Source: Planococcus shixiaomingii (GTDB taxonomy: Bacteria; Bacillota; Bacilli; Bacillales_A; Planococcaceae). Taken from it: 64,000 bases of DNA. Both the position numbers and the translations under genes were made by a program. The notes beneath the pieces were generated by a model, which saw only the letters and a list, made by a program, of their open reading frames with translations, searched no databases and was not told the origin of the DNA. Shown one piece after another: positions 31,099-40,078 of the stretch (within the stretch, counting starts at the first letter, position 1; each line of letters opens with the position of its first letter). The DNA lies in assembly GCF_030413615.1 (NCBI RefSeq), contig NZ_CP129236.1:1410001-1474000 (forward strand), read 5' to 3'.

Positions 31099-32430
31099 GT
31101 GATTCCAATAAGTTCAATAAGTGAAGACTTGGAAAAATGGATAGATGCGTACCAGAGTAACGGTTATCTGCATGGTGCTATTTTAGTAGCCAAAGGGGAC
31201 GACGTGCTTTTGAGCGAAGGATTTGGAATGGCTAATGTAGAACATCAAGCGGCGAATTCTCCTAAAACAAAATTCCGGATTGGATCTATAACTAAAGGAT
31301 TTACTGCCATGGCAATTTTTCAGCTTTACGAGAATAAGCAACTGGATATTAACGATTCAATTGATAAATATTTTCCCAGTTATCCGAATGGCAATAAAAT
31401 AACTTTGTATCATTATTTAACCAATTCCTCAGGTATATCTAATTTTACTGGAGCTACTGATTTTTGGTCCCGGAAAATGCGGCTGCCTTTTACGTTGAGT
31501 GAAATGATCGATTCATTTAAACAAACTGAATTGGAATTTGAACCTGGCCATGAATATAGCTATTCTTCTTCAGGATATTTGGTGCTAACTGCAATTATTC
31601 AAAAGCTTTCGGGAAAGACATATGAAGAATATATGTATGACTATATTTTTTTGCCGCTCGGCATGGAGAATACTGGGGTCGACAATGGAAGGACGGTTGT
31701 TCCAGACCTAGCTTCCGGTTATTCATACTGGGAAGCTCCCATACATGCGGAGTATGCTGATATGTCTTTTCCTTCAGGTGGTTACGGCATTTATTCAACG
31801 ACTGAAGACTTGTTGAAGTGGAGCCGCTCTTTGATGGACCCGGTATTGATCAGCTGTGAAACCACAGCAAAAATGTTGAAGGCGTATTTGAATGATTATG
31901 CCTGCGGCTGGTCGGTTGCTCCTCAGTTCGGAAAACGTTGTTTAAGTCATTTCGGCGATGTCAGTGGGTATGCTAGTAATTTTCTTCAGTTTACTGATGA
32001 TCAAATAACGATAATTTTTTTAAGCAATTTGAGCGTGTCGCCGGTAGTGGATTTGACGAAGGAACTCGCAAAGTTGATATATGGAAAACCGGCCATGTTA
32101 CCTGATCCGTTAAAGCCGATAAGCTTTGAACCAGATAGAGAACTATGCGGAACTTATTATTTTGAGAATGAGCCAGACAAATCAATAGAAATTTCTTTCA
32201 AGGATCAAGGATTTTTTGTGACGGTGCCGAAAATGTACGGCACGCTTTACAAGTTTAAACTTCATCTTATAGAGCGTGGGACAGGTGAACTATTATTCAT
32301 GACGGAAGGGGTTCATGAAAGACTAGTTATTTCTTCAGGCCGTACAGGCGTTGAGTTTGTTTTCTATACCGATTGCCATGGCAATAACTTTTGTCTGAAG
32401 GCATATAGAGGAGAGAAAAAAGGTGGGTAG
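31099..32430 (+). CDS. Beta-lactamase-family serine hydrolase
   Basis: 443 residues. The nucleophile motif SITK lies near residue 63 (FRIGSITKGF), the tyrosine motif reads YSYSSSGY near 154, and a C-terminal beta-rich extension (about 350-440) follows. Such class C-like serine hydrolases include DD-peptidases and esterases; no signal peptide is visible, so this one probably acts in the cytoplasm. The start is GTG at 31099 with AGGAG upstream. The next gene overlaps its end by eight bases, so the two are coupled. It begins a more variable region of the window. Confidence 0.88.
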   Translation: MIPISSISEDLEKWIDAYQSNGYLHGAILVAKGDDVLLSEGFGMANVEHQAANSPKTKFRIGSITKGFTAMAIFQLYENKQLDINDSIDKYFPSYPNGNKITLYHYLTNSSGISNFTGATDFWSRKMRLPFTLSEMIDSFKQTELEFEPGHEYSYSSSGYLVLTAIIQKLSGKTYEEYMYDYIFLPLGMENTGVDNGRTVVPDLASGYSYWEAPIHAEYADMSFPSGGYGIYSTTEDLLKWSRSLMDPVLISCETTAKMLKAYLNDYACGWSVAPQFGKRCLSHFGDVSGYASNFLQFTDDQITIIFLSNLSVSPVVDLTKELAKLIYGKPAMLPDPLKPISFEPDRELCGTYYFENEPDKSIEISFKDQGFFVTVPKMYGTLYKFKLHLIERGTGELLFMTEGVHERLVISSGRTGVEFVFYTDCHGNNFCLKAYRGEKKGG

Positions 32431-32995
32431 CGAGGCAATAGTGGAAATACTGATAGATCAATATTTAGCGCGCTTTATTCGAACCCGGCCTTACATCGTT
32501 GGTATTGACGGCTTAAGTGGATCCGGAAAAACCACCTTAACTAAAGAACTAGAGAGGCAATTAATAAATCGCCATTTGAAGGTGCAGTTGTTTCACTTGG
32601 ATGATTATGTAGTTGGCCGTTCGAAGCGTTATCTTACGGGTTATCCGGAGTGGTACGAATATTATGCGCTGCAGTGGGATATAGCGAACTTGTCAGCTGA
32701 ACTTTTCGGGAAATTGCAGCAAGGCAAGAAAAAAATAGCGCCTGACACGATCGTTTTAATTGAAGGCGTCTTCCTGCAACGGACAGAGTGGCAAGATTTC
32801 TATGATTTTGTTCTGTATGTTGATTGCCCACGCGAATTGCGATATGAGCGGACACTGCGTCGCAGCGAGAATCCAGGCAATCTTGATGAGAGAAGAGCTT
32901 TATATAGCCGGCGTTACTGGCCAGGGGAAGATCATTATTTATCGGTGGAACAGCCGCATGAAAAAGCGGATTTAATAGTGAAAACAAATAATTAG
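32423..32995 (+). CDS. Uridine kinase-like P-loop kinase
   Basis: 190 residues. The Walker A motif GLSGSGKTTL lies at about 30-39, followed by a LFHLDDYV segment and an RTLRRSENPG lid, as in uridine kinase or phosphoribulokinase-like small-molecule kinases. The substrate is not known. The start is GTG at 32423, overlapping the serine hydrolase gene; GAGGAG lies nine bases upstream. A GTG at 32441 is a possible alternative. The overlap suggests translational coupling to the hydrolase. Confidence 0.8.
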   Translation: MGSEAIVEILIDQYLARFIRTRPYIVGIDGLSGSGKTTLTKELERQLINRHLKVQLFHLDDYVVGRSKRYLTGYPEWYEYYALQWDIANLSAELFGKLQQGKKKIAPDTIVLIEGVFLQRTEWQDFYDFVLYVDCPRELRYERTLRRSENPGNLDERRALYSRRYWPGEDHYLSVEQPHEKADLIVKTNN

Positions 32996-33068
32996 CAGTT
33001 AGATTTGAAGCAAGTTCAGATAAGTAAACTTCTGATCTTGCTTCTTTTATAAAAAACTTATTTTGTCA

Positions 33069-33096
33069 TGAACTTTTTCTCGCATCCACTGTCTAA
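33069..33096 (+). promoter_or_regulatory. Candidate ECF-type autoregulated promoter
   Basis: TGAACTTTTT at 33069-33078 followed by TGTCTAA at 33090-33096 resembles ECF promoters (GAAC-type -35 with CGTCTA-type -10). It lies 30 bases before the sigma factor start, where an autoregulated promoter is expected. Confidence 0.5.
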
Positions 33097-33125
33097 TGTT
33101 AAACCAATGCAAAAGGGGTGCCAAT

Positions 33126-33644
33126 TTGGAAGAGCATGAGGTCAACATAAAAGCGATTAGCGGTGATGACGAAGCATTTCTGTCGTTAATGCATCTACAT
33201 AAAGAAGCGCTGCTTCGCACGGCGCTAGCATTCTTGAAAAGCGACCAGGAAGCCATTGAAGCGCTTCAAGAAGTGACGTATCGCGCTTATAAAAAAATTC
33301 ATACCGTCAAAGAACCGGCTTACGTAAAAACGTGGTTGATCCGCATTATGATCAACTACTGCCAAGATCAATTAAAGAAAAACAAACGGTTTGCTGTTGG
33401 AAACAACAATCTAGACTTTCCGGCAACCGATCAATTTGCTTTACTGGAACTGGCCGAAGCGCTCGCTGTTTTGTCAGCGGAAGAACAGCAATTGATTTAT
33501 ATGAAGTACTTTCAAGATGTGAAAATAAAAGACATAGCAAAGCTGGAAAAAATTCCGGAAGGCACTGTTAAATCACGGCTGCATAAAACATTGAAGACAT
33601 TGCGCATTTATTTTGATAGGAAAGGGGGAGTGGACCATGTTTGA
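33126..33644 (+). CDS. ECF-type RNA polymerase sigma factor
   Basis: 172 residues. Region 2 (about 10-75, with DQEAIEALQEVTYRAYKKI) and region 4 (about 115-165, LSAEEQQLIYMKYFQDVKIKD and IPEGTVKSRLHK) are both present, with nothing between, as in group IV sigma factors. The start is TTG at 33126, with AAGGGGTG upstream; the ATG at 33096 lacks a ribosome site. It overlaps the downstream anti-sigma gene by eight bases (ATGTTTGA), so the two are translated together. Targets unknown; the pair probably responds to envelope stress. Confidence 0.92.
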   Translation: MEEHEVNIKAISGDDEAFLSLMHLHKEALLRTALAFLKSDQEAIEALQEVTYRAYKKIHTVKEPAYVKTWLIRIMINYCQDQLKKNKRFAVGNNNLDFPATDQFALLELAEALAVLSAEEQQLIYMKYFQDVKIKDIAKLEKIPEGTVKSRLHKTLKTLRIYFDRKGGVDHV

Positions 33645-34959
33645 AAAAGAAGAAAAAAACCTGAATCGGTTGAAAATGGAGCTTGAGAACACCACTCTCC
33701 CTCTTGAAAAAGCTGACGGTGCTATTCTTCGCGGGATGGAGCAGGCAAAGGTAGAAAAAAGAAGAACGCGTACAAAACGAATCAGAAGTCTATGGACGAT
33801 CGCCGCAACGGCCATCTTAATGGTTGCCCTTATAGGGACGATCCGTGTCTCGCCTGCCTTTGCACATGCAGTAGCGAGTATTCCGGGCATGGAAAAATTC
33901 GTCTCTTTCGTTCAACATGACAAAGGATTAAATGCCGTGTTCGAAAATGATTATTATCAACCTATCAATGTCACTCAAGAAAAAGATGGTCTTACGCTCA
34001 AAGTGGAAGGAGTTATTTTAGATGAATCTGGAATGAATATCTTCTATTCGGTAACATCTCAACAGTCGTTAGAAGCGATAAGCATACAAAAGCCGGAACT
34101 GCACAACCAGCAAAAAATTCCTCCGGGCAGTATCTCGTATGGCTATCCGCATAATGGAAAAGACCCTTACGTTTACCACGACCGAATTGATTATCACTTT
34201 GTGGATTCCGTGAAATTTGATGACTTGTCTTTTAAATTCGACGTGACGGTTTTGTTGAATGGACATAAAACATTGTTTTCAGTGCCGATTGAAGTGCCGG
34301 AAAACGTCCGGCCGAATATCGTTTACGCAGTCAATGAGGAAGTGGAAATTGAATCGCAAAAGATAACGATAAAAGAAATAATCGTCTCGCCATTACGCGT
34401 CGGAGTGAAAATATCTGTCGACCTGGATAACAGCAAAAAAATATTGAATTTTGAAGATCTGCGGCTGGAAGATGAGAATGGCGAGATTTGGGGTTCTATC
34501 CGAAACGGAATTTCTGCAACTGGAGCTCCCGGTTCAGAAACTATATATTATTTACAAAGCAATTATTTCGAACAGCCGAAAGAACTATATTTGCAGATAA
34601 ACAAAATCCAGGCGCTGGATAAAGAAGAGGCGTTTCTCGAAGTCGATACAGAAAAAAACAAGTTGATCCGCGCGCCGAATGACGGAAGATTAACGTTGGG
34701 AACTTCGGAAAAATCTCGTGTGGAGTTTTTCTTAGCGGATATTCCTGAAGATGAGCAGAACCACGAGTTAATCTTGTCAATATTAGATGCAGAAGGGAAA
34801 TCGATTGAAATATCTTCTGCTCTGACTGAAGTGAGCGAAAACCAAAAACGATGGGATATCGGCTTTGGTACAAGCAGCTATACCAATCCGCTGCGCCTTG
34901 AGTTAGTGGCTTATCCGAATTATATTGAAGGCGATGTGAAGATAAAACTGTCGCATTAA
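33637..34959 (+). CDS. Anti-sigma factor, DUF4179/DUF5643-like membrane protein
   Basis: 440 residues. A short cytoplasmic N-terminus (about 1-50) would bind the sigma factor, one membrane helix lies near 52-72 (TIAATAILMVALIGTIR), and the long extracellular part begins with an FAHAVASIPGMEKFV segment typical of DUF4179 proteins and ends in two beta-sandwich regions. By family and coupling it should hold the ECF sigma factor at the membrane until a signal arrives. The ATG at 33637 follows AAAGGGGGAG; the in-frame start at 33613 is inside the sigma gene. Confidence 0.88.
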   Translation: MFEKEEKNLNRLKMELENTTLPLEKADGAILRGMEQAKVEKRRTRTKRIRSLWTIAATAILMVALIGTIRVSPAFAHAVASIPGMEKFVSFVQHDKGLNAVFENDYYQPINVTQEKDGLTLKVEGVILDESGMNIFYSVTSQQSLEAISIQKPELHNQQKIPPGSISYGYPHNGKDPYVYHDRIDYHFVDSVKFDDLSFKFDVTVLLNGHKTLFSVPIEVPENVRPNIVYAVNEEVEIESQKITIKEIIVSPLRVGVKISVDLDNSKKILNFEDLRLEDENGEIWGSIRNGISATGAPGSETIYYLQSNYFEQPKELYLQINKIQALDKEEAFLEVDTEKNKLIRAPNDGRLTLGTSEKSRVEFFLADIPEDEQNHELILSILDAEGKSIEISSALTEVSENQKRWDIGFGTSSYTNPLRLELVAYPNYIEGDVKIKLSH

Positions 34960-35003
34960 GAAAAAGCAGGCTGGAGATGAATTGTCTCCGCCTGCTTTTT
35001 CTT
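34960..35003. terminator. Bidirectional terminator after the anti-sigma gene
   Basis: AAAAAGCAGGC pairs with GCCTGCTTTTT, and an inner GGAGA/TCTCC stem extends the hairpin. It lies between convergent genes. Confidence 0.9.
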
Positions 35004-35499
35004 AATCCACTCCAACAACGTTACTTCTTCTTTCCAAAAAGACATTATCCCGCCAAACACCGTCGCGTTTGCCGATCCGTTCCCGCACGCCGACAATCCG
35101 GAAACCATTGTTCAAATGCAGTTTAATGCTGGCCTCATTTTCAGGGAAAATGGCTGCTTGCAGCATCCAAAACCCTTCGTTTTCAGAATGGCGGATTAAT
35201 TCCTGAAGCAGTAAAGTTCCGATGCCTTTTCCTTTTTCGTTTAGATCGATATAGACGCTTGTTTCACCGACACCGGCATAAACTTCTCGGGTGGAAACCC
35301 GACTGATTTTGCACCAGCCGAGTATGTTTTGCTGCTCTTCTAAAACAAGGCGGCAGGCAGGAGTAGCTTGGCGAATCCACTGTTCATAAGTAGGGGCACT
35401 TTTTTCAAAGGTCGCGTTTTTTGTGGCTATGCCTTGTTCGTATATCCGTTTGACAGAAGGCCAATCCTGTTCAGTCATTGTTCTAATTGTATGAGCCAT
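35002..35499 (-). CDS. ArsN1/phosphinothricin-acetyltransferase-like GNAT
   Basis: 165 residues of the Pat/YncA branch of GNAT enzymes. Visible family landmarks are RIYEQGIATKNATFE near 20-34, ETSVYIDLNEKGKGIGTLLL (acetyl-CoA-binding loop) near 81-100, and NGFRIVGVRERIGKRDGVW near 133-151. Members acetylate amino groups of amino-acid-like toxins such as phosphinothricin or, for ArsN1, arsinothricin. It is divergent from a MarR regulator, and an operator-like palindrome lies between them. The toxin specificity is not shown by sequence. GGAGGAAAG precedes the ATG. Confidence 0.82.
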   Translation of the reverse strand: MAHTIRTMTEQDWPSVKRIYEQGIATKNATFEKSAPTYEQWIRQATPACRLVLEEQQNILGWCKISRVSTREVYAGVGETSVYIDLNEKGKGIGTLLLQELIRHSENEGFWMLQAAIFPENEASIKLHLNNGFRIVGVRERIGKRDGVWRDNVFLERRSNVVGVD

Positions 35500-35544
35500 G
35501 CGGGCTTTCCTCCTTAATAGTAATCATAAAATAAGCTTAAATAA

Positions 35545-35567
35545 AATAGTTGCAATTTGCAAGTAAA
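35545..35567. promoter_or_regulatory. Candidate MarR operator in the acetyltransferase/marR divergent promoter
   Basis: AATAGTTG and CAAGTAAA flank a 7-base centre CAATTTG. The layout matches the perfect palindrome AATACTTG-N7-CAAGTATT at 36051. TTGCAA inside it can be the -35 box of marR, with TACTCT 17 bases on. Confidence 0.65.
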
Positions 35568-35596
35568 TATTTTACTCTAAGAGTGAGGTGAGAAAT

Positions 35597-36046
35597 GTGG
35601 AAACAAAACGAGATACATTCCAAACTATGATGAAACGATTTGGCTTATTAAATAAAAACAGCTGCATGGTTGGCGGGCTGGAAATAACGCTCGTGCAAAG
35701 CCATATTTTATATGAAATAGATAAACGAGAAGAACCGTCGATGCAAGAAGTGGCTGAAACACTCGGTATTGATATTTCTACATTCAGCCGTCAGATCCAA
35801 ACTCTGATTAAAATGAAACTTGTAAGGAAAACACCATCTTCTCAAGACAAAAGAATATATCTTCTTTCGTTAACTACGGAAGGGAAGTTTGTAGCAGCGA
35901 CTGTCGAAGAAAGCATGGAGCAACACCTGGATGAAATTTTCTCGCATATGAGCGAGTTTGAACAAGAAACCGTCTTGCACTCCATGAAAGTGCTGAACGA
36001 AGCGATGGCGAAATCGACGGTTTGCTGTAAACCGATATATAAATAA
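35597..36046 (+). CDS. MarR-family regulator with Cys23 and Cys143-Cys144
   Basis: 149 residues with the MarR winged-helix fold. The recognition region is EVAETLGIDISTFSRQIQTLIKM (about 51-73) and the wing is TPSSQDKRIYLLSLT (79-93). Cysteines at 23 and, in the C-terminal STVCCKPIYK, at 143 and 144 could form a thiol or metal(loid) sensing site. The GTG at 35597 has GAGGTG six bases before it; an upstream GTG at 35588 overlaps that site. It lies between a Pat-like acetyltransferase and a Cys-Cys flavoprotein, with similar operators before both promoters. Sensing chemistry is inferred. Confidence 0.88.
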   Translation: METKRDTFQTMMKRFGLLNKNSCMVGGLEITLVQSHILYEIDKREEPSMQEVAETLGIDISTFSRQIQTLIKMKLVRKTPSSQDKRIYLLSLTTEGKFVAATVEESMEQHLDEIFSHMSEFEQETVLHSMKVLNEAMAKSTVCCKPIYK

Positions 36047-36050
36047 AACT

Positions 36051-36073
36051 AATACTTGCAAAAATCAAGTATT
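36051..36073. promoter_or_regulatory. Candidate MarR operator before the flavoprotein gene
   Basis: AATACTTG and CAAGTATT form a perfect 8-base inverted repeat around 7 bases, starting 5 bases after the marR stop and ending 23 bases before the flavoprotein ATG. Confidence 0.75.
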
Positions 36074-36096
36074 AAAATATCAAAGGGGGAAATAAT

Positions 36097-37440
36097 ATGA
36101 CAAACCAATCTTCATGTTGTTCAACAGGACCAGTACCTATTCATTTTGATCTGCCGAAAAAGCAGTCCACTTTACTTCCTGTTGCCATTATTGGAGGAGG
36201 GCCGATTGGGCTGGCAGCAGCGGCTCATTTAGCACGGGCCGGCAAAAGATTTATTGTGCTGGAAGCTGGAGAGAAAGTAGGGCACCATGTGCTGCAGTGG
36301 GGACATGTCCGGTTATTTTCTCCTTGGCAATACAATATTGATAAAGCGGCGAGAAGTTTGTTGGAACAAGTTGGCTGGTCTGCGCCAGATGCTGATAAAC
36401 TGCCGACCGGCAAAGAACTGGTAGAAGAGTATTTAGTGAAATTAGCTGAACTTCCAGAAATCAAACCTTTTATTCGCATGAATACAAAGGTTGTGTCCAT
36501 CAGCAAAAAAGGGCTCGATAAAATGAAGACGGCAAATCGTGAAGAAATGTCGTTTGTATTGTATGTGGAAAACGGAAAAGGCGAAACCGAACAAATTAAA
36601 GCGGAAGCAGTTATTGATGCAACAGGAACATGGGGACAGCCGAACCCGGCCCAAGCTGCTGGCGTCTGGACACAAGAAGAAAAAGCTCTCGCTGAACATA
36701 TTCATTATGGCATCCCGGATATAGCCGACAAAGACCGAGACAAGTTTGCTGGAAAGCGGATAGCGGTCATTGGCGGCGGGCATTCAGCGATTAATACAAT
36801 TTTGGATTTAGCACAGAAGGCCACCGAAATCATCTGGATTCTTCGAAAGAACAACGTGGAGGAAGTGTATGGAGGAGAAGAAATGGATGCTCTTGAAGCG
36901 AGAGGAGAACTTGGTTCTAGAATCCACGAACTAGTTGATAGTGGCGCTGTAACCGTAGTAACACCATATAACATTGAAAAAATAAAAAAACATGGCGACA
37001 CGTTAACATTGCATGGCGAGTGGAACGGAGGCTCGCATGCCATTGAAGAACTGGACCAGCTGATAGTCAATGCCGGAAGCCGGCCGGACTTTACATTTTT
37101 ATCGGAAATTCGGTTGACTATCGATCCAGCAACCGAAAGCGTCAAGGCGCTTGCGCCGCTTATCGACCCGAACCTTCATAGCTGCGGTACGGTCCGTCCG
37201 CATGGTGAAGCAGAATTGAGGCAGCCGGAAAAAGATTTTTATATCGTTGGCATGAAAAGTTATGGCCGTGCACCAACTTTTCTGATGGCGACGGGTTATG
37301 AGCAAGTCCGTTCAGTCGTGGCTTATTTGACGGGTGACGTCGAAGCGGCAAGGAAAGTGGAATTGGAACTGCCGGAAACGGGTGTTTGCAGCATAAATGT
37401 GAAAGCAAAGGTTGGAAGCTCGCCAACACTGTGCTGTTAG
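36097..37440 (+). CDS. FAD/NAD(P)-dependent flavoprotein with Cys-Cys pairs at both ends (CzcO/ArsO-like)
   Basis: 447 residues. The FAD-binding GGGPIG is at 33-38, an ATGTWG motif is at 175-180, and a second Rossmann motif GGGHSA for NAD(P)H is at 226-231, as in CzcO-type and flavin-monooxygenase-like proteins. Distinctive SSCC at residues 5-8 and LCC as the last three residues could bind soft metals, arsenite or a thiol cofactor. AAAGGGGGA precedes the ATG. It stands after a Cys-Cys MarR regulator and a matching operator. Similarity to ArsO, the flavoprotein of some ars operons, is suggested by context and cysteines and is not proven. Confidence 0.85.
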   Translation: MTNQSSCCSTGPVPIHFDLPKKQSTLLPVAIIGGGPIGLAAAAHLARAGKRFIVLEAGEKVGHHVLQWGHVRLFSPWQYNIDKAARSLLEQVGWSAPDADKLPTGKELVEEYLVKLAELPEIKPFIRMNTKVVSISKKGLDKMKTANREEMSFVLYVENGKGETEQIKAEAVIDATGTWGQPNPAQAAGVWTQEEKALAEHIHYGIPDIADKDRDKFAGKRIAVIGGGHSAINTILDLAQKATEIIWILRKNNVEEVYGGEEMDALEARGELGSRIHELVDSGAVTVVTPYNIEKIKKHGDTLTLHGEWNGGSHAIEELDQLIVNAGSRPDFTFLSEIRLTIDPATESVKALAPLIDPNLHSCGTVRPHGEAELRQPEKDFYIVGMKSYGRAPTFLMATGYEQVRSVVAYLTGDVEAARKVELELPETGVCSINVKAKVGSSPTLCC

Positions 37441-37455
37441 AAGGGAGCCATCACG

Positions 37456-37656
37456 ATGACAGTCAATCACGGAGGAAATTTAAAGCCGCATTATTTTCGT
37501 TCTTATTTATCGCTGATTATGCTTTCAAGAAATTGCAATTTGGAACAAGCTGAAAACTATATGATGAAGTCGTTTTTTAAGGGTAATAGGACACATTTTG
37601 GTTCAACGACCTATGAGAATTTTGTAAAAGCCGTCGATAGTTTCATGGAAAACTAA
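37456..37656 (+). CDS. Small hypothetical protein downstream of the flavoprotein
   Basis: 66 residues, soluble, mixed helix, with one cysteine in MLSRNCNLEQAE. It starts 15 bases after the flavoprotein stop with AGAAGGGAG upstream, and is followed directly by a terminator, so it is the last gene of the marR-flavoprotein unit. I do not recognise a family. The spacing and ribosome site support a real gene; its role would be in the same response. Confidence 0.65.
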   Translation: MTVNHGGNLKPHYFRSYLSLIMLSRNCNLEQAENYMMKSFFKGNRTHFGSTTYENFVKAVDSFMEN

Positions 37657-37693: not shown

Positions 37694-38242
37694 TGTAGAC
37701 AAAAGAATAATTAACTTTCTAACGGAATAAATAGACCTATTTTATCAGAACCGTACCGGCACCTCCGCTTCAGCCGGTCGCTTTCCGCGGGCTCGCGCCG
37801 AACTAACTCGGTCCTGGCGTCCCGAGTGGATTTCGGCACTTCGCTGTCCCGCTGGAGTCGCCGGCCTACGCTCCGGTGCCTGAAGCTAGAAGAGAATACT
37901 CGGTGTCTTGTACCATCTTTTACTCCATCCAAATACTTAGCAGTTGCCCTGATTTGAGAAAGACGCCCAACCGGGCGGGACACGCAGACTCCTGTGGGAC
38001 AGCTCGAGCGGAAGACCCCGCAGGCAAGACATTGGCCGAAAGTCTTGAGGCCATGTCTTTGCGACGAAGCTAGCGCAGCGATGCAACGCTTTTTCATGTC
38101 TCGAAGCTAGCGAAGCGATGCAGAGACAGGAGCAACAGTCTTTTCAGTGACGAGGAGGCTGAAGCCGAGCCCACGGAAAGCGAAGTGGCCGGCCCGGTTG
38201 CTTTTATGCATCCTTCTTCAACTATCCTGCACTATGTCTACA
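37694..38242. repeat. Intergenic element copy B with TGTAGAC inverted ends
   Basis: The 549-base segment begins TGTAGACAAA and ends TATGTCTACA. Its first 180 bases match copy A (22837), and its last about 50 bases match the right end of copy A. About 330 extra bases in between resemble the GC-rich palindromic repeats common between genes in Bacillaceae: CGCAGACTCCTGTGGGACAG, a GACGAGGAGGCTGAAGCC segment, and two GAAGCTAGCGNAGCGATGCA units at about 38067 and 38104. Open frames across it are repeat by-products. No transposase is encoded. It fills the gap between the flavoprotein unit and queE. Confidence 0.8.
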
Positions 38243-38286
38243 GTATAAAAGGTTGAAAGGCAAAATTGCCTTTCAACCTTTTATAC
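38243..38286 (-). terminator. Terminator of queCDE (right of element B)
   Basis: GTATAAAAGGTTGAAAGGCA pairs with its complement around AAAT and overlaps the queE stop codon. It repeats the stem found at 37653-37691. Confidence 0.85.
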
Positions 38287-38988
38287 GCCGCGCTTATTTC
38301 CCCAAACCAATGTATGAAGCTGAGGCAGCACTTTAGCATCGTTCATAATCGATGAGTTGATCGATATGTCGATCAGCCATTCGTAGCGTTCCAACAAATC
38401 TTTCACCAGTCGGGCATCATCCGTTGTCACTGTGTCGCTGTTGCCGGTCTGTAAAAAGAACGGAACTGCCGGATAGCGCAAGTGAACATCTTCTGCGTAT
38501 TTAAAATCTTCTTCATCAAAAATAACCACTTTCAAACTGGCATTGGCGCTGCTCAAGTTCTCCATGAAGAAATCCAATTTGCTGAAGTCGGTTATCATAC
38601 CGGAACTTGGCGGCTTCGGGGAGATAGTAATGTCATCGATATTTCGAAGCCACTCCTGCCACATGGATCCTTGTGTTTCTACAGCGACTTTCCAGCCGTT
38701 TTCGTGGCATAAATCAACCAGTTCGCCGATTCCTTTGTGAAGAGCCGGGTTACCGCCGGAAATGGTCACGTGAGAGAAGGATTCCCCACCTATTTGCCGA
38801 AGTTCTTCTATAATATCTTGAGGCTGTTTCGAGACACTTTTACCCGTGCCATCCCATGTAAAGCTGGAATCGCACCAGGCACATGAGTAATCACAGCCGG
38901 CCGTGCGGACAAACATCGTTTTTTGTCCCATAACCATGCCTTCGCCTTGGATCGTCGGACCGAACACTTCCATTACGGGTATCTTCAT
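38281..38988 (-). CDS. queE: 7-carboxy-7-deazaguanine synthase QueE
   Basis: 235 residues of the radical-SAM superfamily. The cluster-binding cysteines lie in CDYSCAWC (CX3CX2C), and GPTIQGEG near the N-terminus is a QueE hallmark. It converts 6-carboxytetrahydropterin to 7-carboxy-7-deazaguanine in queuosine synthesis. The ATG at 38988 overlaps the queD stop as ATGA and has GGAGGA upstream; the longer frame to 39108 lies inside queD. It is the last gene of queCDE, followed by a terminator and element B. Confidence 0.96.
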   Translation of the reverse strand: MKIPVMEVFGPTIQGEGMVMGQKTMFVRTAGCDYSCAWCDSSFTWDGTGKSVSKQPQDIIEELRQIGGESFSHVTISGGNPALHKGIGELVDLCHENGWKVAVETQGSMWQEWLRNIDDITISPKPPSSGMITDFSKLDFFMENLSSANASLKVVIFDEEDFKYAEDVHLRYPAVPFFLQTGNSDTVTTDDARLVKDLLERYEWLIDISINSSIMNDAKVLPQLHTLVWGNKRGV

Positions 38989-39407
38989 GAAAAGTCCTCC
39001 TGTCTCGGACGGTAGACAACGTAGCTTGTCGGTGTTTCCCGGACAATCACTTGCAGGCATTTCGGTTCGTTGCTGCGCGTGTTGAGCACTTCTTGGATCG
39101 TCTTCCATATTTGTTCTGCCAACAATTCAGTCGTCGGAAACTTGTTTTGGAATTCAGGATGGTCATTTAATACGGAATGATCGTATTTCTTATGGACAAT
39201 ATCTTTTAAAATTTTAAAATCAATCAAAAAACCGATCGAATCAAGTTCATTGCCGCCAATGGTAACATTGACATGATACGTATGCCCATGCACCGCTTGG
39301 CATTTTCCTGCTTCTTCACTTGGAATAAAATGAGCAGCGGAAAAGTTCATGTCTTTGTTGAGTTCAAATCGGTAAGAGTGGGTAACAGAAGGATAGAATT
39401 GCTGCAT
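38985..39407 (-). CDS. queD: 6-carboxy-5,6,7,8-tetrahydropterin synthase QueD
   Basis: 140 residues of the PTPS fold. Zinc ligands are His in FSAAHF and HGHTYHV, the catalytic Cys is in GKCQAVHGH, and the Asp-His pair is near KKYDHSVLND. It makes carboxytetrahydropterin from dihydroneopterin triphosphate. The ATG at 39407 overlaps the queC stop as TGATG, and GGAAAGTG lies upstream; the longer frame begins inside queC. Tight overlaps with queC and queE show one translationally coupled operon. Confidence 0.95.
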   Translation of the reverse strand: MQQFYPSVTHSYRFELNKDMNFSAAHFIPSEEAGKCQAVHGHTYHVNVTIGGNELDSIGFLIDFKILKDIVHKKYDHSVLNDHPEFQNKFPTTELLAEQIWKTIQEVLNTRSNEPKCLQVIVRETPTSYVVYRPRQEDFS

Positions 39408-40078
39408 CACTTTCCAACACCTGCCGATTTTTGATCCAGATAAGTTTTTAAGCCATCGTTTCGAAGCTTGCATGAAGGGCATTCTCCGCAGCCGGTGCTC
39501 GGGATTCCCTCATAGCAAGTCAACGTTTTTTCCTGGACAAAATCCAACGCGCCAAGATCATCGGACAATTCCCAGACACCTGCTTTGTCGAGCCACATGA
39601 GCGGGGTATGGATGATGAACTGCTTATCCATTGCCAAGTTCAAAGAGACGTTTAATGACCGGATAAAGGTGTCCCGGCAATCCGGATAGCCGCTGAAATC
39701 GGTCTCACTGACACCCGTAATCAAATGGCGTGAACCAATAGCATCGGCGTAGACCGCTGCAAAAGACAGGAATAATAAGTTTCTTCCTGGAACAAAGGTA
39801 GAAGGCAATTCGCCTTCTTTTGTTGTTATGTCAATATCATCGCGAGTTAGCGCATTAGCAGACAACTGATTAATTAATGTCATATCCAATACTTTGAAAG
39901 ACACGCCGAGTTCGTCGGCAATTTTCCGTGCCACTTCGATTTCGGCTGAATGGCGCTGCCCATAATCGAACGTTACCGTTGCTACTTCGTTAAAATTTTG
40001 CAATGCCCAAAAAAGGCAAGTCGTGCTGTCCTGGCCGCCGCTGAAGACGACCACCGCTTTTTCATTTTTCATTTCCAT
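39407..40078 (-). CDS. queC: 7-cyano-7-deazaguanine (preQ0) synthase QueC
   Basis: 223 residues. The PP-loop FSGGQDSTT is at about 13-21 and a C-terminal zinc site is formed by cysteines in [10 protein letters not shown] and the preceding LTCYEG. It converts carboxydeazaguanine to preQ0 using ATP and ammonia. ATG at 40078 is used; a second in-frame ATG at 40072 lies at a more usual distance from AAGGAG. It is the first gene of queCDE and carries a preQ1 riboswitch that overlaps its ribosome site. Confidence 0.96.

Follow-up and report, generated by a model that had tools for sequence, protein, structure and literature searches.

Arsenic sensing in bacteria has been described mainly through ArsR proteins. 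A further regulator, NemR, is of the TetR type. In the available parts of the literature, NemR is described as a non-ArsR repressor selective for trivalent organoarsenicals (PMC10080717), ArsI as demethylating methylarsenite (PMC10080717), ArsV as a methylarsenite-oxidising flavin enzyme (PMC10080717, PMC11719878), and ArsP as exporting trivalent organoarsenicals (PMC11653729). The accessible text on TnARS1 of Bacillus sp. MB24 places arsR1-orf3 (glutamate-synthase-like)-orf4 (flavoprotein-monooxygenase-like)-orf5 (GNAT) beside arsRBCDA-orf11-orf12 (phosphatase) (PMC6920998). Here we describe a locus in a 64,000-nucleotide stretch of the Planococcus shixiaomingii genome (contig NZ_CP129236.1, positions 1,410,001 to 1,474,000; hereafter the window), in which a GNAT acetyltransferase gene, a gene for a MarR-family regulator with cysteines C23, C143, and C144, and a flavoprotein gene adjoin. 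Our results suggest that this Cys-tailed MarR is an arsenic sensor, probably for organoarsenicals, of a kind rarely tied to arsenic.

Compared by description with the part of the TnARS1 report that is accessible, ArsR-controlled ars clusters including TnARS1 hold the same kinds of genes as the MarR loci, so the enzyme set is not new (PMC6920998). The regulators differ: that of TnARS1, as presented there, is an ArsR with a CVC motif, whereas that of the window is a MarR with C23 and a C-terminal cysteine pair (CC tail). The Cys-tailed MarR as a regulator in an ars-gene setting would be the new element. NemR, as far as the available text characterises it, is no MarR protein and shares with the window MarR the position of a non-ArsR regulator of organoarsenical genes, a role that is proposed here for the MarR. 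Among the matches listed from the open literature searched, and within the accessible portions of those papers, no published MarR-type regulator of ars genes was noticed. The locus comprises the following features.

35002..35499, minus strand: GNAT acetyltransferase resembling ArsN1 family A, divergent from MarR (NCBIfam NF040503, Pfam Acetyltransf_4)
35546..35566: putative operator 1, 21-bp palindrome ATAGTTGCAATTTGCAAGTAA between GNAT and MarR (matrix score 29.2 bits)
35597..36046, plus strand: MarR-family regulator with C23, C143, and C144 (Pfam MarR and MarR_2, AlphaFold2 fold)
35663..35665, plus strand: MarR C23 codon, an invariant position in the sequences
36023..36028, plus strand: MarR C143-C144 codons (CC tail), invariant in the sequences and absent from 20 MarR paralogues
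36052..36072: putative operator 2, ATACTTGCAAAAATCAAGTAT, between MarR and flavoprotein (matrix score 26.0 bits)
36097..37440, plus strand: FAD/NAD(P)H flavoprotein with an N-terminal CC and an LPETGVC...CC tail (Pfam Pyr_redox_3)
37456..37656, plus strand: 66-residue protein without known domain, conserved beside the flavoprotein (64-member cluster)

We assign a probability of about 0.6 to the explanation that these genes form a small arsenical-response regulon consisting of a MarR repressor, an oxidising flavoprotein, and an acetylating GNAT enzyme. By binding the two palindromes of the TACTTGCAA type (35546 and 36052), the MarR dimer would repress the promoter region of GNAT and MarR as well as the promoter of the flavoprotein. 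C23 and C143-C144 would together bind a trivalent arsenical (most likely an organoarsenical, for example methylarsenite, with antimonite or arsenite as alternatives), and this binding would release MarR from the DNA. The flavoprotein would use NAD(P)H and O2 to oxidise the trivalent species, which would yield a less toxic pentavalent form; its GVC...CC tail would present the thiophilic substrate, and the GNAT enzyme would acetylate an amino-bearing arsenical of the arsinothricin type. The evidence computed here comprises the genes, the cysteine conservation, the palindromes, the ars-gene neighbourhood, and the exchange of target genes. A first-pass annotation of the same DNA had taken the Cys pairs, together with the acetyltransferase, to suggest a response to a soft metal(loid), an arsenical, or thiol stress; this was largely right, and the replacement of the target gene by ArsI, ArsM, ArsP-type, and ArsO-like genes favours arsenicals over the other two.

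The regulator and its cysteines

The regulator scored 43.6 bits with PF12802 (cut-off 27) and 42.5 bits with PF01047 (cut-off 24.6), above both Pfam cut-offs, and 23.4 bits with the ArsR/SmtB model NF033788, below the cut-off of 55. The coordinates first given for the GNAT, MarR, and flavoprotein genes were confirmed in the sequence. MarR residues are counted from the GTG at 35597, directly 5' of which lies a Shine-Dalgarno-like GAGGTGA (by eye); the first GTG of the open reading frame list is at 35588, a shift of 3. With the start at 35597, C23 and C143-C144 stand where the first-pass annotation had put them, and their invariance in relatives shows that they are not there by chance.

Regions were fetched around the other 140 flavoprotein places and around ten further MarR matches, and the open reading frames of 153 regions were clustered. 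All three cysteines are kept in 75 of 75 aligned rows of the resulting MarR cluster. These are the rows, out of 78, that align over the Cys sites; the other 3, which are additional MarR copies of a different kind in L112, L126, and L135, were excluded, and L223 is a duplicate of L158. Position 22 is a Cys in 72 of the 75 rows and a Ser only in the window and in the loci L022 and L023. A scan of named genomes matched at least 596 stretches, and the best 80 of 369 relatives were taken as named loci (Planococcus, Ureibacillus, Psychrobacillus, Anoxybacillus, Geobacillus, Neobacillus, Paenibacillus, others, and one labelled Bacteroidetes metagenome-assembled genome). In these loci, which come partly from the same genomes as the aligned rows, C23 and the CC tail are present in 80/80 and C22 in 78/80. 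Homologues that keep the neighbourhood and lack the Cys pairs had been named as evidence against the unit; no examined member of the arsenic-linked MarR group lacks C23 or the CC tail. The closest named relatives among the matches listed are Planomicrobium sp. CPCC 101110 and CPCC 101079 (MarR identity of 87% and 85%, respectively). MarR homologues (E ≤ 1e-15) occur in 97 of the 261 genomes of the order, weaker matches being paralogues, and on plasmids in 30 records (E ≤ 1e-20).

Many of the 20 MarR paralogues (L224-L243) have a C23-like Cys, and none of them ends in CC. Since the CC tail is invariant in the arsenic-linked group and missing from the paralogues, it is the feature that tracks this group. 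C23, C143, and C144 are conserved candidate thiol ligands for an arsenical-responsive repressor.

The AlphaFold2 model of the regulator has a MarR fold with a mean predicted local distance difference test (pLDDT) score of 83.7. The Foldseek search placed MexR (top), ZitR, and FabT nearest, with E around 1e-7 and identities of 16-26% among the 50 matches listed. These three proteins, which share the MarR fold with the window regulator, are redox, zinc, and lipid sensors, respectively. In the model, C22-C23 comes after helix 1 (residues 4-15) and the CC tail after the last helix (residues 120-139). In MarR dimers, the terminal helices of one chain interlock with those of the other; therefore, a C23/CC-tail site formed between the chains is possible.

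The same evidence bears on a different explanation, according to which MarR senses thiol redox state or electrophiles in the manner of MexR/OhrR, the flavoprotein is a YpdA-related disulfide reductase, and the arsenic link is secondary. We regard it as improbable. It would fit the C23-like Cys kept in many paralogues without ars genes, MexR as the top structural match of MarR, and YpdA/Bdr as a near structural match of the flavoprotein. By contrast, the CC tail tracks the ars-linked group, the flavoprotein scores 61.3 bits with the YpdA model TIGR04018, below the cut-off of 339.9, and the replacement of the flavoprotein by ArsI, ArsM, and ArsP-type genes would be unexpected under thiol stress.

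Putative operator palindromes

A 21-bp matrix with the consensus ATACTTGCAAAATGCAAGTAA (26 bits) was built from 57 MarR-flavoprotein spacers, including that of L216, where the next gene is ArsO-like instead. Operator 2 is part of the training set and has the same position, between MarR and flavoprotein, in the other MarR-flavoprotein loci; operator 1 lies outside the training set. In 55 of the 57 loci, a second, non-training site scoring at least 15.2 bits stands before MarR; 1,140 shuffles of the upstream regions gave no score above 14.6 bits. The MarR start had been set too far upstream in the remaining two loci (L023 and L145), and a scan of these regions revealed the site. Across the 153 regions, some of which overlap, every one of the 75 MarR-positive regions contains a site (≥13 bits), and 73 contain two or more. 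Of the 78 MarR-negative regions, 70 are free of sites, five contain a single one (13.4-16.9 bits), and three contain two; the shuffled control yielded 13 sites in 2.28 Mb. We attribute the two sites in these last three regions (L024, L026, and L110) to a MarR gene that was missed by the open reading frame caller or is broken.

The window has two strong sites, and the next best scores 8 bits. In the whole genome, operator 1 is the sole match to the operator pattern with zero mismatches, and three places have one mismatch. With up to two mismatches, the number in the flavoprotein site itself, 55 places matched, versus 57 for the reversed-pattern control. Because the matches are no commoner than the control, no further MarR target can be claimed in this genome, and such candidates were rejected.

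An inverted repeat, AAGCAAGA...TCTTGCTT, lies between the MarR stop codon and operator 2 in L100-L107 and in other non-Planococcus loci (by eye). It resembles a terminator that would divide MarR from the flavoprotein gene, and it is absent from the window. The scan for sigma-70 promoters was no richer than shuffled sequence (5 versus a mean of 4.8), nor was the terminator scan (3 versus 3.5).

Genes behind the regulator

For each of the 80 named loci, the target gene was taken to be the labelled gene with the best score among those that start no more than 900 bp behind MarR. This gene was the flavoprotein in 35 loci, an ArsP-type permease in 17, an ArsO-like gene in 7, ArsM in 5, ArsI in 5, and GNAT in 4; of the 7 loci without a labelled gene in this position, 3 have a divergent GNAT. 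The palindrome (≥14 bits) is present in 80/80 and lies just 5' of MarR in 75. An organoarsenical-type gene, the flavoprotein being counted among these, occurs within about 8 kb in 75 loci, an ars core gene (arsB, acr3, arsA, arsD, or arsC) in 49, and either of the two in 78.

The labels were compared with curated families. The ArsI/CadI proteins of L304, L316, and L340 scored 165.6-174.6 bits, above the NCBIfam cut-off of 116, and the shorter open reading frame of L338 scored 80.1 bits, below it. The ArsM proteins of L280 and L298 scored 364.7 and 368.7 bits (cut-off 263). The ArsP-type permease corresponds to Pfam PF03773 (ArsP_1). Since the candidate sensor cysteines are kept while the target varies among ArsI, ArsM, ArsP-type, and ArsO-like genes, the MarR is, on these sequence comparisons, most plausibly interpreted as sensing trivalent organoarsenicals, with antimonite and arsenite as further possible ligands.

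The palindrome also precedes genes of a major facilitator superfamily transporter family (cluster C33) in L118 (8603-9844), L218 (13500-14750), and L106 (3011-4306), among several Ureibacillus and Psychrobacillus loci; in Psychrobacillus, the transporter gene adjoins the ArsO-like gene. The C33 transporter is likely a further MarR target.

Arsenic genes around the locus

The largest clusters other than those of the window genes were arsR (98 regions), arsC (81), arsB (49), arsA (38), a HesB-like gene (33), arsD (30), and acr3 (30); a phosphatase cluster was found in 12 of the 153 regions, and the largest unrelated clusters reached 19 and 17. Cluster representatives exceeded the NCBIfam cut-offs for ArsC, the ArsB-family pump, ArsA, ArsD, Acr3, and ArsR/SmtB, and the HesB-like and phosphatase representatives fell far below theirs. 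By tblastn, 100 of the 141 flavoprotein regions had an ars core gene no farther than about 7 kb away: 38/66 with MarR and 62/75 without it. None of the 20 regions around the MarR paralogues that lack the CC tail had one. Such a gene is present in 1 of the ten extra MarR regions, and an ArsP-type gene in 3, that one included. Co-occurrence with ars genes across Bacillales, which had been proposed as a check, was thus borne out. In a Planococcus glaciei plasmid, arsR, an arsenic transporter gene, arsC, arsD, arsA, and genes for a phosphatase, an Fe-S protein, GNAT, MarR, and the flavoprotein stand in one row.

The window itself has no ars gene, as would be expected if GNAT, MarR, and flavoprotein were unrelated genes that merely adjoin. 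We give this explanation next to no credence: the same gene order recurs in many genomes together with common palindromes, which refutes a chance neighbourhood as far as gene order can, and it was rejected.

Among the flavoprotein regions without MarR, 70 of 75 hold arsR, mostly upstream and in the same direction. We therefore infer that MarR substitutes for ArsR as the regulator ahead of the flavoprotein. The initial claim that arsR, arsB, and arsC are missing is true of the 64-kb window, and the locus is, as had been stated, not a classic ars operon; these genes are in separate places of the genome, with arsB at C1:464258 adjoining an arsR-like gene and arsC at C1:3912519 together with arsR and a thioredoxin-reductase-like gene (the last by eye). 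No match to acr3 was found in the genome.

MarR might instead sense As(III)/Sb(III) in inorganic form, or soft metals in general, through a three-thiol site, as ArsR does, with the flavoprotein as an auxiliary to efflux. This explanation is unlikely, although it is the likeliest of the alternatives considered: three conserved cysteines would suit trigonal As(III)/Sb(III), the 38 MarR-flavoprotein regions with an ars core gene agree with it, the family name ArsI/CadI leaves cadmium open, and three of the 80 named loci (L288, L292, and L333) have the palindrome no more than 200 bp 5' of an arsR gene. On the other side, among the 40 named loci in which a pump gene (arsB or acr3) occurs, 34 hold arsR as well, the MarR palindromes mostly precede organoarsenical-type genes, and the arsB and arsC loci of this genome lack them.

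Flavoprotein, its partner, and the acetyltransferase

The flavoprotein begins with MTNQSSCC and ends with LCC, as first described. Among the complete proteins (15 of 141 were dropped as incomplete or without the exact motif), a CC follows the PETGVC motif in 61/64 at MarR loci and 59/62 at other loci, and the N-terminal CC, which is less fixed, occurs in 56/64 and 46/62, respectively. Some homologues thus lack the N-terminal CC with the neighbourhood intact, which makes this pair the weaker evidence. Homologues at E ≤ 1e-30 occur in 19 of 60 genomes, all of one genus and including this genome, and at E ≤ 1e-60 in 128 of the 261 genomes of the order (141 places) and in 123 plasmid records of Bacillota, Actinomycetota, and Pseudomonadota. 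Foldseek comparison of the flavoprotein model supports only a flavoprotein with two dinucleotide-binding folds.

Comparison with described flavoproteins revealed that (i) ArsO (NCBIfam NF040505) is likewise an FAD/NAD(P)H flavoprotein of ars clusters, and the window protein scores 67.6 bits with its model, below the cut-off of 425; (ii) in Streptomyces sp. FR-008, the annotated ArsO and the homologue of the window flavoprotein are separate genes of one cluster, the homologue lying beside acr3-arsO and followed by a major facilitator superfamily gene; (iii) ArsV, set beside the window protein by description only and from the accessible text, acts on the substrate class that is proposed here (PMC10080717, PMC11719878); and (iv) in Ensifer adhaerens M8, the order is GNAT, an arsR-type gene, the flavoprotein homologue, and arsK. 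We suspect, as a lead only, that the flavoprotein is ArsV or close to it.

The interval first described also contains the 66-residue open reading frame (37456-37656), which was omitted from the reasoning at that time. Its cluster has 64 members, encoded beside the flavoprotein gene or close to it in 63 of the 153 regions, and the window protein and two relatives tried have no Pfam or NCBIfam match. On the pattern of its neighbours, this orphan protein is assigned to the unit.

The GNAT enzyme had been assigned to the branch that acetylates phosphinothricin or arsinothricin. Its best NCBIfam match is indeed ArsN1 family A, and the GNAT adjacent to MarR in Paenibacillus sp. Cedars is annotated as such; the score of 141.1 bits, by contrast, falls below the cut-off of 170. 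In the available part of the PpArsN1 report, the gate arginines are Arg75 and Arg77 (PMC6465285). By an indirect alignment via another acetyltransferase, these positions would correspond to S69 and R71 of the window protein; in the GNAT cluster (74 members in 74/153 regions), the first is Ser in 72/74 and the second Arg in 71/74.

Weight of the arsenical reading

Several findings weigh against an arsenical-response regulon. No ars core gene is nearby in 28 of the 66 regions with MarR and flavoprotein, including the window, L022, and L023, and the named loci and other genomes overlap and are related, so the counts are not independent. The arsB and arsC genes of this genome have no palindrome scoring at least 10 bits within a distance of about 1.5 kb. 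The palindrome (≥14 bits) is also present in 20/20 of the MarR paralogue regions; it was accordingly rejected as an arsenic-specific mark and instead marks the MarR subfamily. All 47 sites in the paralogue regions are 3' of MarR, unlike the 5' site of the arsenic-linked loci, and stand beside other genes in the ten regions inspected. The ArsO-like proteins (273.9-285.1 bits, cut-off 425) and GNAT proteins (134.2-147.2 bits, cut-off 170) of the named loci are below the NCBIfam equivalog cut-offs, and the ArsP-type permeases are below those for SaoE and SO_0444, the family PF03773 also including exporters of other metals. The structure prediction proposed for the Cys pairs yielded the MarR fold but no thiol site: the MarR model is a monomer with a disordered CC tail (residues 144-149 below a pLDDT of 50), and the flavoprotein model (mean pLDDT 64.9) is too uncertain for placing thiols. 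The ligand and both reactions, like the repression and the thiol ligation, are what we infer.

A broader proposition, which we hold tentatively and at slightly less than even odds, is that a MarR dedicated to trivalent organoarsenicals is widespread in Bacillales and drives whichever organoarsenical defence gene is available, with the flavoprotein and its 66-residue partner forming a distinct route against arsenical antibiotics. If so, the Cys-tailed MarR would add a further fold to the arsenic sensors and a possible biosensor part, and a gene behind the palindrome in such a locus would be a candidate arsenic gene. The flavoprotein and the 66-residue orphan, both frequent in the ars loci examined, would gain a testable function.

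Flanking genes

Compared with the nearest relatives, L022 and L023, the window has extra genes at 31099-34959, between a conserved gene for a 422-residue protein and GNAT: they encode a beta-lactamase-like serine hydrolase (by eye), a kinase, an extracytoplasmic function sigma factor, and a DUF4179/DUF5643 protein. On the other side of the unit, the sequence at 37711-38281 is intergenic, GC-richer, and repeat-like, with no convincing gene (by eye). It is followed at 38281-40078 by overlapping queE-, queD-, and queC-like genes (by eye), which are kept behind the unit in L022 and L023.

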